Source of the DNA: Pseudomonadota bacterium
GTDB lineage: Bacteria; Desulfobacterota; BSN033; G020346125
Direction of reading: 5' to 3'
Length of the DNA: 5,858 nt
Assembly: GCA_030673585.1 (NCBI GenBank)
Contig: DAOVIU010000097.1
Location: forward strand, 1-5,858
The translations under genes were made by a program, and so were the position numbers. Shown here in pieces: positions 1 to 5,858 of the stretch; the stretch's first letter is position 1, and every line of letters begins with the position of its first letter. Under the pieces are notes generated by a model. It saw only the letters and a program-made list of their open reading frames with translations, did not search any database and was not told where the DNA came from.

Positions 1-602
1 CCCTTCAAATCGCCAGAAATCCGGAACTGCTCGCCCTTGCCCGAGAAAGCGGCTGCATCTCCCTTTTCATCGGTTTCGAGTCCCTCAATCAGGAGAACCT
101 GGACGGGGCGAGAAAGACCTTTATGGACACGAACGAGCTGGTCGACCTCATAAACCGAATTCAAGACCACGGGATAGGGATTCAGGGCGCCTTCATCTTT
201 GGGTTCGACCACGATGAGAGGGAAGTGTTTAAGAGGACCGTCGATTTCGTCCACGAAACTCATATCGAGCTTCCGACTTTCTCCGTCCTCACGCCCTTTC
301 CCGGGACCCCTCTGAGGAAAAGACTTGAGGAGGAGGGGCGGATCTTCGATAACCATTGGCCTCACTACGATATGAGTCATGTGGTCTTCAAGCCCAAGCT
401 GATGAGCCCCAGGGAGCTCCAGGAGGGATACCTGTGGGCTCAGAAGTATTGCTGTTCTCCTCGCTCCATTTTGGGAAGGCTCCTTCGGGGTCCCCGGAAC
501 CACCTCTTCCACTTCTTGATGAGCAATTTCGTCCTGAGGGGGGCTCAGATGGAGATCGTCAACAGGCTCAGGGATCGCCAGTTCCATATGGAAGCATCAT
601 GA
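1..602 (+). CDS. B12-type radical SAM protein, C-terminal part (5' end outside window)
   Basis: The reading frame is open from base 3 to the TGA at 600-602, giving 199 residues with no N-terminus; the in-frame ATG at 123 is internal, because family-like sequence continues upstream of it. Visible in fragment numbering: SLFIGFESL at 20-28, typical of the later strands of a radical SAM barrel; a GAFIFGFDHD strand/turn at 62-71; LTPFPGTPL at 96-104; and a tail with W119, HYDMSHVVFKP (121-131) and MSPREL (134-139). That tail is characteristic of the large family of cobalamin-binding radical SAM proteins that includes BchE-like and hopanoid-modifying enzymes. The expected N-terminal B12 domain and CxxxCxxC motif would lie upstream and are not seen. 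These enzymes are cytosolic and typically carry out methylations, cyclisations or other radical C-C chemistry. The substrate is unknown; the fatty-acid-type genes downstream suggest a lipid or polyketide. It overlaps the next gene by four bases (ATGA). Confidence 0.88.
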   Translation, partial: LQIARNPELLALARESGCISLFIGFESLNQENLDGARKTFMDTNELVDLINRIQDHGIGIQGAFIFGFDHDEREVFKRTVDFVHETHIELPTFSVLTPFPGTPLRKRLEEEGRIFDNHWPHYDMSHVVFKPKLMSPRELQEGYLWAQKYCCSPRSILGRLLRGPRNHLFHFLMSNFVLRGAQMEIVNRLRDRQFHMEAS

Positions 603-1999
603 GAATTCTCTTGCTATCGGTAAACAGGGAGAGGATGCCCTACCCGGTCTTTCCCCTGGGATTGGCCTATATCGCCGCCGTACTCAAGGAGGAGGGACAC
701 CACTTGAGAATCCTGGACCTCTGCTTCTGCGAGGACCTGGAGGAAGAGCTGAGAAACCAGGTATCGCGGTGGAGACCTGACCTCATTGGGCTTTCGCTGC
801 GAAACCTGGATAATTTGACCTATCCAACTTCCCTCTCCTACCTTCCGGAGGCGGAGGAGGTGGTCGCCCTTTGCAGGAGATATTCGGGGGCTCCGGTGGT
901 AATCGGGGGCTCCGGCTTCTCCCTGGCCCCAAGGAAACTCCTGAGGGTCCTGGACGTCGATTTTGGGGTAGTGGGGGAGGGGGAGAATCCAATCCTTTCC
1001 CTGGTTCGTTGCCTGGAAAGGGGAACCCCGGTGGAGGGAATCCCCGGGCTGATCACGCGAGAGAGCCCGGCGGGAGCGGTTCCGGCCATCGATCGGGTCA
1101 AGTCATTCGGGTTTCCGTATCGGGATCTCATGGACAACGAACGATATCTGCGTCACGGGGGAATGGGGAACATCCAGACCAAAAGAGGATGCCCCTTCGG
1201 GTGCATTTACTGTACCTATCCGCTGTTGGAGGGATCCTCCGTTCGGATGAGAGCGAAGGAGGAGGTCCTCCAAGAGCTCCGGGGCTTGAGGGAACATCAC
1301 GGCGTCGATTACGTTTACTTCGTGGATGATATCTTCAACTTTCCACCCGACTATGCCCTCGAGCTCTGTCGGTCCATGGCGGACCAGGGGATCAGGGTGA
1401 AATGGAGCGCCTTTGTCAACCCGGGTTACGTGGATGAGGAGCTGATGGAGGCCATGAAAGAATCAGGCTGTACGGGAGTCGAATTCGGCACCGATTCGGG
1501 GTCTCCCGCCATGTTGAGACGACTCGGGAAATCCTTTTCGGTGGAGGATATCTCGCGGGCTTCCGAGATATGCAGGGGGGTCGATCTCCCCTTTGCCCAC
1601 TACCTCCTTCTCGGTGGGCCGGGGGAGGACGAGAAGACCCTGGAGGAGACCGCCTCCTTAATGGACCACCTCGAGCCAACGGCCGTCATCGTCATGGTGG
1701 GAATTCGCATCTATCCCGGCACGGAGTTAGAGGGGATATCCCTCTCCCAGGGGATTATTGCTCCCGATACCAACCTCGTGAATCCCCATTTCTACGTCTC
1801 CCCTCGATTGGGGGATGAAATCCTCTCTTGGGTCTCCCAGCGGGCCTTGGAGAGGAAAGGGTGGATTGTGCCGGGATTGGAGATTAACATTTCCCAGAAC
1901 CTGATGGACCAGATCCGGCGGTTTCGCATCAGGGGCCCCCTGTGGAATTTGGTGGCCAGAATGAAAAGGCCGAGGGTGAGACCGCTCTCCGGGGAGTGA
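599..1999 (+). CDS. B12-binding/radical SAM protein, lipid-biosynthesis type
   Basis: Complete protein of 466 residues. Residues 1 to about 145 look like a cobalamin-binding Rossmann domain: hydrophobic first strand (MRILLLSV), [11 protein letters not shown] at 19-29, GGSGFS at 103-108 and VVGEGE at 124-129. The classical DxHxxG cobalamin ligand motif is not evident, as in many relatives. The radical SAM domain follows, with CPFGCIYC (C198, C202, C205) for the 4Fe-4S cluster and SAM, YFVDDIF at 240-246, GVEFGTDSG at 293-301 and a late IYPGTEL at 371-377. The frame is open back to 356, but ATG 599 is preferred: it gives the family N-terminus, overlaps the upstream stop as ATGA, and has GGAAG four bases upstream. 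I place it with B12/radical SAM proteins found beside ketosynthase genes, as in clusters proposed for ladderane lipids. The reaction is not known; a radical step on an acyl chain is inference. Confidence 0.88.
1991..1996 (+). promoter_or_regulatory. Shine-Dalgarno of the FabG-like gene
   Basis: GGGGAG lies seven bases before the ATG at 2004, inside the last codons of the upstream radical SAM gene and immediately before its TGA (1997-1999). It is the best ribosome-binding site in the window. It fixes the start of the reductase, and its position suggests that ribosomes ending the upstream gene can feed initiation here. Confidence 0.6.
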
Positions 2000-2003
2000 T
2001 TTC

Positions 2004-2744
2004 ATGGAGTTCGATGGCCGAATAGCAATAGTGACCGGTGGCTCGAAGGGGATAGGGAAGGCCATCAGCTTGGCCTTCTGCGAGAGGGGAGCTCACGTAG
2101 TCTCCAATTACGCCTCAGATCAACGGGCGGCGCAGGAGCTATCCAAGGAGGCCGAATCCCTGCGGGGCAAGCTCATTCCGCACCAAGCGGATGTAACCGA
2201 TCACGAGCAGACCGGCGCCATGATGGAGGATGTCGCGAACCGTTATGGCGGGATCGACATCCTGGTCAACAACGTGGGAATGATGAGGGATAACCTCTTG
2301 ATGCTGATGTCCGATGAGGACTGGGATCGAGTACTGAGGACGAATCTGACCAGCATCTTCTACTGCTGCCGAGCCGCCCTGCGGAAGATGATCCCTCAGA
2401 GGAGGGGAAAGATCGTTAACATCGCATCGGTCAGCGGCATCCTGGGCACGGCTGGTCAGGCCAACTACGCCGCCTCCAAAGGGGGCTTGATAAGCTTCAC
2501 CAAATCCCTGGCCAGGGAATTGGGACAATTCAATATTCAGGTCAATGCGGTGGCTCCGGGGCTCATCGAAACCGACTGGCTGGCGAAGGTTCCAAGGGAG
2601 AAGGTAGAGGCCATCATCAAGCAGACCGCCTTGGGGCGAATGGGTCGGCCCGAGGAGGTTGCCCACGCCGTGCTTTTTTTGGCCTCGGAGGGATCTGCTT
2701 ACATCACCGGCCAGACCATAGTCGTGGATGGGGGAATTGTCTAA
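2004..2744 (+). CDS. fabG: FabG-like 3-oxoacyl-[ACP] reductase (SDR family)
   Basis: A 246-residue classical short-chain dehydrogenase/reductase, the usual FabG length. It has the nucleotide-binding TGGSKGIG (11-18), NNVG (89-92) in place of the commoner NNAG, N114, S142 and the YAASK motif with Y155 and K159, so the Asn-Ser-Tyr-Lys tetrad is intact. [11 protein letters not shown] and the C-terminal [11 protein letters not shown] closely match the FabG subgroup. FabG reduces 3-oxoacyl-ACP to (R)-3-hydroxyacyl-ACP in the cytosol, normally with NADPH, in each elongation round of type II fatty-acid or polyketide synthesis. The setting before a ketosynthase pair argues for a pathway-specific copy rather than the housekeeping one, which normally sits with fabD and acpP. 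The start is four bases after the upstream stop, and the 3' end overlaps the ketosynthase gene by 17 bases. A related SDR acting on another substrate cannot be excluded. Confidence 0.92.
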
Positions 2745-3966
2745 TCAGAACACCAAAAGGGTTGTGATCACCGGGTTGGGAGCGTTTACCGCCATCGGGA
2801 GAAACGTCCTTCAATTCCGCAGCTCCCTCGAGGAGGGCAGGGGAGGCATCGGCGAGGTAACCCTGTTCGATGTCTCCAAGTACCCGTCCAAGATTGCCGC
2901 TCAGATCAGGGATTATGATCCCTCGGACTATTTCGACCGCATCGAGCTGAGAAGGCTCTCCCGAACAGACCAATTCGCCCTCATCGCCTCAACGGAGGCC
3001 ATCAAAGACGCCGGAATCGAGGGTAATGGCAAGCCGCGCCGGGGGACCGGGGTGTACCTCGGGGCAGGGGCAGGTGGAATGTTTTCCGCCGAGCAGTACC
3101 ACCGTCAGCTCCTCCTTAAAGGGAGGGGAAAACCTCGCCCTTCGCTTCTCCTTCCCTTCCTCCCCAGCTATTCCACTGATGCCGTATCGAGACGGTTTTG
3201 CCTCTGCGGACCGAAGGGGACCATCACCACGGCTTGCAGTTCTTCCGCCACATCAATAGGGTACAGCGCCGACCTGATCAGGAGGGGATATGCCGAGGTT
3301 ATGATCTGTGGGGGAAGCGATGCCATGAGCGAATTGACCTTCGGGGGCTTCAATTCGCTCCGGGTGGTCGATCCTGATCCCTGCAAGCCCTTCGACGCGA
3401 GAAGGACGGGAATGACCTTGGGAGAGGGTGCGGGGATTTTGGTGCTGGAGGAGTTGAACCGGGCCCTAGCGAGGGGGGCAACTATCTATGCGGAATTCCT
3501 GGGATATTCAACGCTGGGAGAGGCCTACCATATGACCGCCCCGGAGGAATCCGGGACGGAGCAATCCAGGACTATGAGGGAGGCCATGAGGGCAGCCCAC
3601 ATTGCCCCCGGTGAGGTGGACTACATCAACGCCCATGGAACTGGAACACCCATAAACGACAAGGTGGAAACGCTGGCCATTAAGGATGCGTTGGGGGAAC
3701 GGGCCTATTCCGTGCCCGTCAGCTCCATCAAGTCCATGGTGGGCCATTGCCTGGGATCCGCGGGGGCCATCGAGGCGGTGGCGTCGGCCCTCTCCGTTAT
3801 CCATGGCTTTATCCCCCCCACGGCTAACTATCGCGAAAGGGATAAGGGATGCGACTTGGACTATGTCCCCGGAGGGGCGAGAAGGCAACGGGTGGGAACC
3901 GTTCTGTCCAACTCCTTTGCCTTCGGGGGAAATTGTACCACCATCGTGCTGAGAAGGTATGGATGA
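2728..3966 (+). CDS. FabF-like 3-oxoacyl-[ACP] synthase, catalytically intact (KS-alpha)
   Basis: A 412-residue beta-ketoacyl-ACP synthase of KAS II/FabF type and length. The thiolase-fold N-terminus is [14 protein letters not shown] (11-24). Catalytic residues are all present: C170 in TTACSSSA, H303 in [12 protein letters not shown]335 and H340 in [15 protein letters not shown], and the C-terminal SNSFAFGGN loop (394-402). It would condense an acyl chain held on C170 with malonyl-ACP, with decarboxylation, in the cytosol. ATG 2728 gives the normal family N-terminus but has no convincing Shine-Dalgarno and lies inside fabG, so initiation probably depends on upstream translation; TTG 2737 in the same frame has GGGGGA too close to serve. 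It overlaps the next ketosynthase-like gene by eight bases, the usual arrangement of KS-alpha/KS-beta pairs. I give no symbol, since it is likely a pathway-specific paralogue and not the housekeeping fabF. Confidence 0.92.
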
Positions 3967-5167
3967 TGGAATCCTCATAACGGGCATCGGAGTGGTGAGC
4001 TCCATCGGGATTGGAAAGGACCAATTCCGCAGTGGGCTACGGGCAGGTGCGGATGGCATTTCCGAGATCAGCGAGTTCGACACCTCTCCCTTTAAGCCAA
4101 AGAAGGGTGGCGTGATCAAGGGTTTCAATGCCAGGGAATTCATCCCAATTCCCAGGATCAGGAGGCTGGACAGGGCCAGTCAGTTGGCCATTGCGGCGGC
4201 AAAGCTGGCCTTAGAAGATGCTAAATTCACCATTACCAGCTCCAATTGCTGCGAAATCGGTATCATCCTGGGTTCGGGTTTCTGTGGCCTTGCTAATTCG
4301 GAGGCCTTCCATAGGGGACAGGTATTGGGGGGATTTCTGGAGATGAATCCCATGCTCTTTCCCAATACCGTTCCCAATGCAGCCACCGGGAATGTCTCCA
4401 TAGAGCTGGGGATCAAGGGGGTCAATTCAACGGTTGTCCAATCCTATTGTACGGCCGAGGCCGCCATGATTATGGCCTGCGACCTGTTGGCAGATGGGAG
4501 GGCAGAGGCCATACTGACGGGCGGCGTGGATGAACTGAGCGAAATCCTTTTCAGGTCCTACTCTGCCCTCAACCTCTTATCCTTTGATCATGGGGAAAGG
4601 GAAATGAGCCGCCCCTATGATTTGAAGCGCAACGGGATCATTCTCGGGGAGGGGGCGGCCATCCTCGTGCTGGAAAGAGAGCGACACGCCCTTTCCAGAA
4701 GTGCAAAATCCTATGGCCGGGTCTTGGGCTATTCCATTGTGGGTGGGTCCGATGTCGATTCCTCATGGAGGGATATGGGAAGGGCTATCCATTTGGCCAT
4801 GGAAAGTATGCACGGGGAGAGGAGGATCGACTATATTTCCGGGGCGGGGAATTCGTCGAAAAGGGTGGACGAAATGGAGGCAAGGGCGATTGGAGGGGCT
4901 TTTCCGTCGGATTATCGCACGCTTCCCGTGAGCTCCATCAAGTCCATGGTTGGGGAGTCCATCGCCTCGGGCGGGATGAGAATGGCGGCAAATGCCATCA
5001 TAATGGAGGAGGGCTTTATACCCCCCACCATTCACTATGAAACCCCCGATCCCCGGTGCAACCTCAATTACGTGGTAAATAGGCCCATTGAAAAGCACGT
5101 GAAAACCATCCTCCATAATGGTATCTCGCCGGATGGAACCTATGCTTCCATCCTCTTGGGTAGATAG
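3959..5167 (+). CDS. Ketosynthase-like protein lacking the catalytic triad (chain-length-factor/KS-beta-like)
   Basis: A 402-residue protein with the FabF fold throughout (ILITGIGVVSSIG at 5-17, GGVDELSE at 188-195, GEGAAILVLE at 230-239, [10 protein letters not shown] at 323-332). Against the upstream ketosynthase a constant seven-residue offset holds from the nucleophile region to the second His without gaps. It puts Y163 at the catalytic Cys, A296 at the first His and E333 at the second His; only K328 is kept. The C-terminal SFAFGGN loop is replaced by GISPDGT (388-394). A cysteine, C164, sits one residue after the nucleophile position. Loss of these residues is typical of chain-length factors, which heterodimerise with an active ketosynthase and shape its product pocket. 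The frame is intact over full length with no decay, so it is not a pseudogene. ATG 3959 is the only reasonable start; GAGAAGG ends one base before it, too close for a normal site, so coupled re-initiation is likely. Confidence 0.88.
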   Translation: MDDGILITGIGVVSSIGIGKDQFRSGLRAGADGISEISEFDTSPFKPKKGGVIKGFNAREFIPIPRIRRLDRASQLAIAAAKLALEDAKFTITSSNCCEIGIILGSGFCGLANSEAFHRGQVLGGFLEMNPMLFPNTVPNAATGNVSIELGIKGVNSTVVQSYCTAEAAMIMACDLLADGRAEAILTGGVDELSEILFRSYSALNLLSFDHGEREMSRPYDLKRNGIILGEGAAILVLERERHALSRSAKSYGRVLGYSIVGGSDVDSSWRDMGRAIHLAMESMHGERRIDYISGAGNSSKRVDEMEARAIGGAFPSDYRTLPVSSIKSMVGESIASGGMRMAANAIIMEEGFIPPTIHYETPDPRCNLNYVVNRPIEKHVKTILHNGISPDGTYASILLGR

Positions 5168-5643
5168 TGGAAGACCTCTTTTCTCCTACTAACCACCTGC
5201 TGATCTTTACCGTCCTCCATTTCACCTGCGGGCGGACGGTCTCCATGGTATATGCCGTTCTCAATCATCTCCCCTTCCTCTACTATATTCCCCTGGCGTT
5301 GGGCTATGATTATGTACAGATACCCCTTTACGGGTATCTCCTGCAACGGTTCTCCGAGAAATTTCCCTTTCGGTGGGCACGGAAACAGGCGGACCGGATG
5401 CAGGGGCGCATGCAGGAGAAACGCTTGCTTCGATGGATTTCGTCCATGGGGGACCTGGGAATAATCCTCATCTCCGCCCTCCCCATTAAGGGCTTTGGCA
5501 TCCATTCGGGATCGGTTTTTTGCTTTCTCATCGGGAAGAGGCGTTGGGAGGGGACATTGCTCCTCATGACCGGCTCCGTATTGGGCATACTGATCGTCTT
5601 CGGATTAACCACCGGTGCCCTTCAAATCATTTCCATCTTTTGA
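5167..5643 (+). CDS. Small integral membrane protein, resembles the small multi-drug export family
   Basis: 158 residues from a GTG start that shares its G with the stop codon of the previous gene (TAGTG). An in-frame TAG at 5161 leaves no upstream alternative except ATA 5164. Hydrophobic segments are at about 26-46, 96-122 and 129-157, with a shorter one at 47-60. Between them is a basic, amphipathic stretch (61-90) rich in Arg, Lys and Gln that is probably cytoplasmic. The region GDLGIILISALPIKGFG (95-111) followed by a glycine-rich helix resembles the 'putative small multi-drug export' family (Sm_multidrug_ex, COG2426-like); this is recognised by eye only. The family has no firmly established substrate despite its name. 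Being last in a lipid/polyketide-type operon, it could help export or membrane insertion of the product, which is inference. No signal peptide or known catalytic motif is seen. Confidence 0.75.
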   Translation: MEDLFSPTNHLLIFTVLHFTCGRTVSMVYAVLNHLPFLYYIPLALGYDYVQIPLYGYLLQRFSEKFPFRWARKQADRMQGRMQEKRLLRWISSMGDLGIILISALPIKGFGIHSGSVFCFLIGKRRWEGTLLLMTGSVLGILIVFGLTTGALQIISIF

Positions 5644-5734
5644 AAGCGTGACCTAAGAAGGTTCGATAGGCTTCTGGGGATGCAATTTTCTTTGGATGGA
5701 TTAGGAACTCCTCTCTCAGGCCAACCATGAAAAC
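5644..5734. other. Intergenic gap between convergent genes
   Basis: 91 bases between the stop of the membrane-protein gene (TGA 5641-5643) and the stop of the opposing frame (5735-5737). A rho-independent terminator would be expected here, but I find no strong GC hairpin followed by a T-run on either strand. The best pairing is TGGATGG (5693-5699) with CCAACCA (5721-5727), which has one mismatch, a 21-base loop and no T-tract. Termination may be factor-dependent or lie elsewhere. Confidence 0.4.
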
Positions 5735-5858
5735 CTAGCGATGTTTTCCCTCTGCTTCCAGTTCTCCCTCCTCCGCATACAGTTCCTGCCCGTGGGCATC
5801 GACGATTGTCCCGTACTCCTGGGCATACCGATCGATGTGGGGGGCTAAATCGGTAAAG
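5735..5858 (-). CDS. C-terminal 40 codons of an unrecognised convergent gene (5' end outside window)
   Basis: On the complementary strand a frame is open from the window edge (first full codon at 5857-5855) to a TAG at 5737-5735, giving 40 residues. The translation begins FTDLAPHIDRYAQEYG and ends GELEAEGKHR. It looks like a real protein end: a mixed helical segment (DLAPHIDRYAQEYG), a short strand-like TIVDAHGQELY, then a charged, acidic hydrophilic tail. No stop or odd composition interrupts it. I do not recognise the family and assign no function. It converges on the six-gene operon, so it marks the operon's downstream boundary. The main doubt is length: forty open codons can arise by chance in moderately GC-rich DNA, and I rely on the plausible protein-like composition. 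Confidence 0.5.
   Translation of the reverse strand, partial: FTDLAPHIDRYAQEYGTIVDAHGQELYAEEGELEAEGKHR

Follow-up and report, generated by a model that had tools for sequence, protein, structure and literature searches.

We analysed a 5,858-nt stretch of DNA (hereafter, the window; assembly GCA_030673585.1, contig DAOVIU010000097.1, positions 1 to 5,858, forward strand) from an uncultured bacterium that is listed as a Pseudomonadota bacterium and placed by GTDB in the Desulfobacterota. The window encodes two adjacent ketosynthase (KS) homologues, here referred to as KS-alpha and KS-beta. KS-alpha has an intact active site; in KS-beta all three residues of the catalytic triad are replaced. We conclude that KS-beta is very probably a non-catalytic partner that forms a heterodimer with KS-alpha in the manner of a chain-length factor (CLF), and that the pair is part of a lipid gene cluster of the ladderane type with radical S-adenosylmethionine (SAM) enzymes.

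KS-beta is a full-length ketosynthase homologue without the catalytic triad

The KS-beta gene (positions 3959-5167, forward strand) starts with ATG and encodes 402 aa. KS-beta matched PF00109 (117.7 bits) and PF02801 (51.9 bits), both above the gathering score of 20.8, and has the ketosynthase fold; the initial annotation had described it as a full-length ketosynthase homologue. It resembles FabF in fold and length but lacks the triad and scored below the curated FabF cut-offs (281.7 bits against 493.75 for TIGR03150; 263.3 against 387 for NF005589). The KS-alpha gene (2728..3966, forward strand) encodes 412 aa with an intact Cys170-His303-Lys335-His340; KS-alpha reached 432.8 bits with TIGR03150, also below the cut-off, and 424.5 bits with NF005589, above it.

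KS-beta and KS-alpha were 33% identical in BLASTP (E 1e-63). Cys170, His303 and His340 of KS-alpha faced Tyr163 (codons of Tyr163 and the following Cys164 at 4445..4450), Ala296 (4844..4846) and Glu333 of KS-beta, and Lys335 faced Lys328 (Lys328 through Glu333 at 4940..4957), with an offset of seven residues at each position. Thus, the Cys-His-His triad of active FabF (KAS II) is not present in KS-beta. The initial annotation had reached the same pairings by a gapless offset; the pairings were recovered, but the alignment contains 23 gap positions, of which 5, 11 and 6 residues compensate one another from the nucleophile to the first His, with one further residue after the second His. The FAFGGN loop of KS-alpha aligned with ISPDGT of KS-beta (5123..5140), as had been annotated.

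A search with KS-beta gave 2816 homologues below E 1e-3, of which the 120 listed were examined (26 close and 94 at the ~60% level; one is identical to KS-beta of the window). The nucleophile position was occupied by Tyr (22), Ser (2) or His (2) in the close homologues and by Phe (92), Leu (1) or Tyr (1) in the others. The residue following the nucleophile position was Cys and Lys328 was retained in all 120 homologues. The position of the first His was occupied by Ala, Val or Thr, and that of the second by Glu (118) or Asp (2). Gln was not found at the nucleophile position in any of the 120, in line with the annotated contrast between the Tyr-Cys motif and the usual CLF signature.

Loss of the whole triad could also point to a decaying pseudogene or to a sequencing error, and unique sequencing errors had been named as a finding that would overturn the annotation. 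We rejected this explanation and regard it as having next to no probability, as the 120 homologues share the loss, the reading frame is intact, and the ratio of nonsynonymous to synonymous substitutions between KS-beta and its homologue in locus L001 was ~0.19 (for comparison, 0.15 for part of KS-alpha against that of locus L087). Alternatively, KS-beta might mainly decarboxylate malonyl-acyl carrier protein (ACP) to provide a starter, similar to a KSQ domain. Loss of the nucleophile alone would permit decarboxylation, and the Gln of CLFs has been linked to the decarboxylation of starters (PMC6638757, in excerpt); however, KS-beta has Ala and Glu in place of the two His residues that, according to an excerpt of Rattray et al. 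2009 (PMC2649909), are indispensable for decarboxylation, making this alternative very improbable.

Tyr163 is favoured over Cys164 as the residue at the nucleophile position

An alignment with Cys164 at the nucleophile position and compensating gaps would be at odds with the initial annotation. In a MAFFT alignment, the nucleophile position, occupied by Tyr163 in KS-beta, lay 9 columns after that of Gly154 and 25 columns before that of Gly188 in 100/100 active KS and 195/195 beta proteins, 120 of which are the listed homologues of a single class. In a count independent of alignment columns, the first Gly-Gly past the nucleophile was at a distance of 25 in 91 of the 100 active KS (26 in three, none found in six) and in 184 of the 195 beta proteins (none found in 11). 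Pairwise scores, calculated for the 46 of 100 rows in which the nucleophile motif fitted a simple pattern, barely separated the two residues: forcing Cys164 onto the nucleophile changed the score by a median of -3, and Cys164 was joint best in 10/46 rows vs 41/46 for Tyr163.

A structure model of KS-beta, generated from 119 sequences including alpha proteins, had a predicted local distance difference test score (pLDDT) of 95.0; an earlier model from 32 close homologues (pLDDT 64.8) was set aside. In a VIA structural alignment, all 401 model residues 2-402 were paired with residues 2-409 of Bacillus subtilis FabF (4ls6). Provided that this pairing is sequential, the offset is 0 at the start and can only increase, and therefore Cys164 cannot pair with FabF Cys163 (numbered from I108). 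Moreover, most other classes of beta proteins have Glu, Gly, Val or Tyr at the nucleophile position followed by Ser, Thr or Ala; the Phe-Cys motif is also present in three Omnitrophota-type beta proteins from another class (L049, L051, L058). In total, spacing, the other beta classes and the model-based alignment favour placing Tyr163 at the nucleophile position; the Cys164 register is disfavoured by spacing and structure while pairwise scores leave both registers close.

These data also bear on the possibility that KS-beta acts as an independent enzyme, with Cys164, Lys328 and Glu333 as an alternative active site, e.g. that of an acyl transferase that primes with or recruits an unusual starter. 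Cys164 and Lys328 are invariant in the 120 listed homologues, which all have Glu or Asp at position 333, the Phe-Cys motif recurs in the three Omnitrophota-type proteins, and the pairwise scores are only slightly worse with Cys164. In addition, KS-beta1, as the class of the window's KS-beta is named below, is encoded directly behind an acyl-CoA dehydrogenase gene in 11 loci, and Rattray et al. (PMC2649909, in excerpt) proposed that paralogues in Kuenenia recruit products from outside type II fatty acid synthesis (FASII). By contrast, the spacing fits Tyr163 throughout, the pairing with 4ls6, if sequential, bars Cys164 from the position of FabF Cys163, Ser, Thr or Ala follows the nucleophile position in most other beta classes, and both His are lost. 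We consider an independent enzyme quite unlikely. A combined version appears improbable: Cys164, Lys328 and Glu333 would make up an additional acyl-handling site, of a non-Claisen type, and the two sides of the heterodimer would divide the work, one loading an unusual starter and the other extending it; if true, KS-beta beside an acyl-CoA dehydrogenase would couple a starter derived from CoA to the lipid assembly line.

KS-beta groups with beta proteins from several phyla

We scanned a genome collection, confirmed 260 stretches and retained the best 78 loci. By the motif at the nucleophile position, the beta proteins fall into a class with Phe/Tyr-Cys (KS-beta1, including KS-beta of the window), a class with Lys-Glu (KS-beta2), a class with Ser-Thr-Gly-Tyr/Phe, a planctomycete class with Ser-Thr-Gly-Glu, and others; as a locus class, beta1 (24 rows) also takes in Geobacter, L024 and the three Omnitrophota-type rows.

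A quick tree of 101 rows (175 KS sequences thinned by hand to 95, four PDB chains and the two proteins of the window) placed 41 beta proteins, the long-branched ones included, in one group with 99 support in the Shimodaira-Hasegawa-like approximate likelihood ratio test (SH-aLRT). For a careful tree of 66 rows, 35 rows were dropped, including eight with long branches. Here, 28 beta proteins, including KS-beta and chain C of the solved structure 9s5h, formed one group (bootstrap 100, SH-aLRT 99-100), and the paired alpha proteins, including 9s5h chain B, formed another (95/88); as rooted, with a root placed for drawing only, the two groups are sisters (91/91). The beta group spans deltaproteobacteria, Nitrospirota, Omnitrophota and Planctomycetota. 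The main splits of the alpha subtree are repeated in the beta subtree, suggesting one old duplication followed by co-inheritance of the alpha and beta proteins.

KS-beta has no nucleophilic Cys and is encoded beside an active KS with an overlap of 8 bases, as expected for a CLF. It could be a member of the actinobacterial CLF lineage in which the usual Gln was lost. Actinobacterial KS and CLFs were apart from the beta proteins in the careful tree, in which CLFs were located beyond actinobacterial KS and the beta proteins were sister to their own alpha proteins; moreover, the actinorhodin CLF (1tqy_B) has Gln at the nucleophile position, which none of the 120 listed KS-beta1 proteins has, and functions in an aromatic polyketide pathway. 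A single clade of beta proteins and actinobacterial CLFs was not rejected in the approximately unbiased (AU) test (p 0.059). Altogether, we view descent from the CLF lineage as unlikely. Separately, a Nitrospirota beta protein (L032:9989-11209) has Gln at the nucleophile position, like actinobacterial CLFs.

The initial annotation had raised the possibility of a distinct branch of inactive ketosynthase partners. The homologues, the tree, the gene pairing described below and a pair in solved structures support such a branch, whose inactivity and partnership are predicted from sequence; the tree separated it from CLFs, and the AU test did not reject a joint clade.

A solved pair contains a relative of KS-beta

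Chain C of 9s5h was the third-best PDB sequence match of KS-beta. As judged from sequence matches, 9s5h and 9s5i contain a KS with an intact triad (chain B) together with a beta protein (chain C). The positions tabulated by Rattray et al. are occupied in chain C by Val, Asn, Tyr, Gly, Lys, Glu, Gln and Arg, and all eight agree with Kuste3606; chain C is therefore presumably Kuste3606 or a near twin. Chain B is close to a planctomycete KS-alpha (675 bits), and the ACP of 9s5i is close to the ACP adjoining that KS-alpha (124 bits). 9s5h was not among the 50 matches listed by Foldseek or VIA, and among the 21 sequences listed for the planctomycete FabZ there was no match to 9s5h.

Chain C and Kuste3606 share with KS-beta the tree group, the loss of Cys and both His and the retained residues at the Lys328 and Glu333 positions; an active KS was deposited together with chain C, and in planctomycete relatives genes for FabZ and radical SAM proteins adjoin the pair. 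They differ in having Val (Glu in five planctomycete loci) and Asn, compared to Tyr/Phe-Cys and Ala in KS-beta1. The planctomycete loci were 36-40% identical to the KS-beta1 query, and in L053 a phytoene-desaturase-like gene lies directly behind the pair.

Residues at chain-length positions are conserved within several classes

In the actinorhodin CLF, F109, T112 and F116 set the chain length (PMC4383371, in excerpt). The corresponding residues in KS-beta are Leu111, Ser114 and His118 (segment Phe108 to His118 at 4280..4312), which are present in all, 99% and all of the 120 listed KS-beta1 proteins, respectively. In 19 KS-beta2 proteins, these positions are mostly Ser, Val and Phe, and in five planctomycete beta proteins they are Ile, Ile and Asp. 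Thus, these residues are fixed or nearly so in KS-beta1 and the planctomycete proteins, and largely so in KS-beta2, and differ between classes.

Phe108 of KS-beta lies at the position of FabF I108 and is Phe in 120/120 listed KS-beta1 proteins. In the cerulenin-resistant B. subtilis FabF variant I108F, Phe intrudes into the acyl pocket (PMC3996569, in excerpt). KS-alpha proteins of the window's type have Ala at this position (18/18). From Phe108, this Ala and the residues at the CLF positions, the acyl pocket of KS-beta would be closed, and the tunnel of KS-alpha would be open and shaped by KS-beta.

KS-beta and KS-alpha are co-inherited and often encoded together

Among 76 non-actinobacterial beta proteins in the 78 loci and the window, an active KS gene was located within 400 nt in 38 cases and within 3 kb in 15 more. 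For KS-beta1, KS-alpha was within 400 nt in 11 of 25 cases; in L001, the cut-off KS-alpha fragment upstream of KS-beta1 fell outside this count owing to its shortness. Mirror trees of alpha and beta proteins gave r 0.93 for 51 pairs listed by hand, leaving out long-branched pairs, Geobacter, L024 and the Streptomyces pairs, and none of 5000 permutations was as high; in two small groups, with five pairs apiece, the signal was weaker (417/5000 and 69/5000 permutations).

In one class of 23 genomes, which are relatives of one another, were identified in part by way of KS-beta1 and are of unstated completeness, a matching KS-alpha (~58% identity or more, fragments allowed, a limit chosen after the scores were known) was present in 14/15 genomes with KS-beta1 vs 2/8 without (Fisher p 0.0017). 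In 13 of those 14 genomes, KS-alpha is on a different contig than KS-beta1. In G029, one of the two genomes with KS-alpha but without KS-beta1, KS-alpha runs into the contig end, and a KS-beta behind it would be missed. Unlinked KS-alpha stands together with short-chain dehydrogenase/reductase (SDR) and radical SAM genes in 3/12 fetched stretches (L079, with an insert, L083 and L086); in L090, an SDR gene is ~7 kb and a TIGR04072 gene ~8 kb away. In three other genomes (L013/L027, L014/L031 and L021/L033), KS-beta2 is likewise unlinked from its KS-alpha, which is of a type ~50% identical to that of the window; beta proteins have thus moved away from alpha proteins more than once.

Several observations weigh against a dedicated, passive partner of KS-alpha. 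Of the 76 beta proteins, six have an active KS only farther off in the same locus, and no KS-alpha was found in the fetched stretch for nine with a contig end near and for eight without one. Fourteen of the 25 KS-beta1 genes have no full KS-alpha within 400 nt, and in 11 loci (L002-L006, L008-L012, L016) an acyl-CoA dehydrogenase gene, called by similarity and in L004 also by family, is directly upstream instead; it lies farther upstream in L007 and L092. In the unlinked group, the partial r fell to 0.45 after control for housekeeping FabF (99/5000 permutations, eight genomes). G007 of the 23-genome class has KS-beta1, but no KS-alpha of the window's type was found in it, and no relative of the SDR or radical SAM genes was found in 8/12 stretches around unlinked KS-alpha, several of which are short on one side. 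Finally, residues at the chain-length positions are variable among the Ser-Thr-Gly proteins, and a purely passive role leaves the invariant Cys164 unexplained.

The genes around KS-beta

The six genes of the window are all on the forward strand with ends that overlap or nearly touch. A gene for the C-terminal part of a BchE/HpnJ-like radical SAM protein (3..602), which runs off the window and reached no NCBIfam cut-off, shares 4 bases with a gene for a B12-binding radical SAM protein (599..1999) of the ladderane-associated family TIGR04072 (rSAM_ladder_B12; 394.8 bits against a cut-off of 360). A gene for a FabG-like 3-oxoacyl-ACP reductase of the SDR type follows (2004..2744; TIGR01830, 299.2 bits against 297.75) and overlaps the KS-alpha gene by 17 bases. 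Behind KS-beta, a gene for a small membrane protein (5167..5643; PF06695, 45 bits against 30.7) overlaps the KS-beta stop codon by one base.

TIGR04072 matches at E 1e-60 were present in 30 of 38 related genomes, 26 of them over the cut-off, and in 0/14 control genomes. The nearest records of the host of the window are mostly deltaproteobacterial. In L087, with a KS-alpha 87-88% identical to that of the window, a thioesterase gene and more B12 radical SAM genes are upstream, and a FabD-like protein was recognised by eye; in L083, matches to PF00698 and PF00550 confirmed a FabD-like protein and an ACP, respectively. FabZ is encoded downstream in L001 and, farther off on the opposite strand, a phytoene-desaturase-like protein.

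The PF06695-like protein, of the 'small multi-drug export' kind, is encoded behind KS-beta1 in the window and in 16 loci (L001-L012, L014, L016, L025, L092); it was not found behind KS-beta1 in L013, L015 or the Geobacter type. Possibly, this protein moves the lipid. In five loci (L002, L004, L006, L009, L092), a second pair of KS-alpha (~50% identity) and KS-beta2 (Lys-Glu) lies downstream of KS-beta1, past FabZ and methyltransferase genes. A LolA-like protein is encoded near the second pair in four of these (not L006); scanned in L004, it was closest to flexirubin LolA2, under the cut-off. The same region of L004 also encodes an 860-aa protein. The second pair resembles a cluster of the aryl-polyene or flexirubin type.

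Comparison with known systems and proposed function

Divergent FabF paralogues in Kuenenia and Geobacter, with synteny to deltaproteobacteria, were described by Rattray et al. 2009 (PMC2649909; as for the other points taken from this paper, in excerpt), who listed losses of this kind in a table for Kuste3606, Kuste2805 and a Geobacter protein, did not call these proteins partners in the excerpt, and suggested the recruitment of unusual moieties or non-FASII products. Kuste3606 is also listed as a non-canonical FabF (PMC4790861, in excerpt). This kind of protein was therefore partly described in 2009 and is known. Among the titles listed by literature searches that did not extend to subscription papers and preprints, none dealt with 9s5h/9s5i or with heterodimeric KS from Kuenenia, none described the Tyr/Phe-Cys branch or a pairing across phyla, and none interpreted ladderane-type clusters in terms of chain-length factors.

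The Geobacter KS-beta (L071, L074, L075, L078; NP_951518 in Rattray et al.) shares the Phe/Tyr-Cys motif, and its genes have the order of the window, i.e. TIGR04072-type radical SAM, SDR, KS-alpha and KS-beta, in L071, L074 and L075, with one extra open reading frame in L078. It differs in an eroded C-terminal part, with Lys328/Glu333 changed to Gly/Arg in L071 and L078. The Geobacter type (L071 and L078, also L074 and L075) is alignable over part of its length only and recalls the half-size partner ApeC. ApeC of aryl polyene synthesis is likewise a KS partner in a cluster resembling fatty acid synthesis genes (PMC8358021, in excerpt), but in A. baumannii it has one thiolase domain only while KS-beta of the window is full length. 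AntE is a further atypical, degenerate-looking partner in a type II polyketide synthase (PMC6638757, in excerpt).

We propose that KS-alpha would carry out decarboxylative Claisen condensation on ACP-bound chains. KS-beta, predicted to be inactive, would complete the dimer with KS-alpha, would lack a nucleophile on which to carry an acyl chain, and would act across the interface to shape the acyl tunnel of its partner, in a manner similar to that of a CLF, with a possible role in chain length. The pair would work with the FabG-like SDR and the B12 radical SAM enzymes to make a specialised lipid in this uncultured bacterium; judged from related loci, FabZ, ACP and a FabD-like acyltransferase may also take part.

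Clusters of the ladderane type have been called in many phyla from which no ladderanes are known (PMC9902471, in excerpt), and Rattray et al. found no ladderanes in Desulfotalea, which has a similar cluster (PMC2649909). Our data suggest that the 'odd FabF' genes of ladderane-type clusters represent a single family of alpha/beta ketosynthase pairs whose history is shared and whose tunnel residues, in several classes, are specific to the class. A list of divergent paralogues thereby becomes a set of testable two-subunit enzymes. The pair in the window comes from outside the anammox bacteria, and its KS-beta most likely belongs to a family of such pairs that is widespread in anaerobic bacteria, has received little study and is related to ladderane-linked enzymes.

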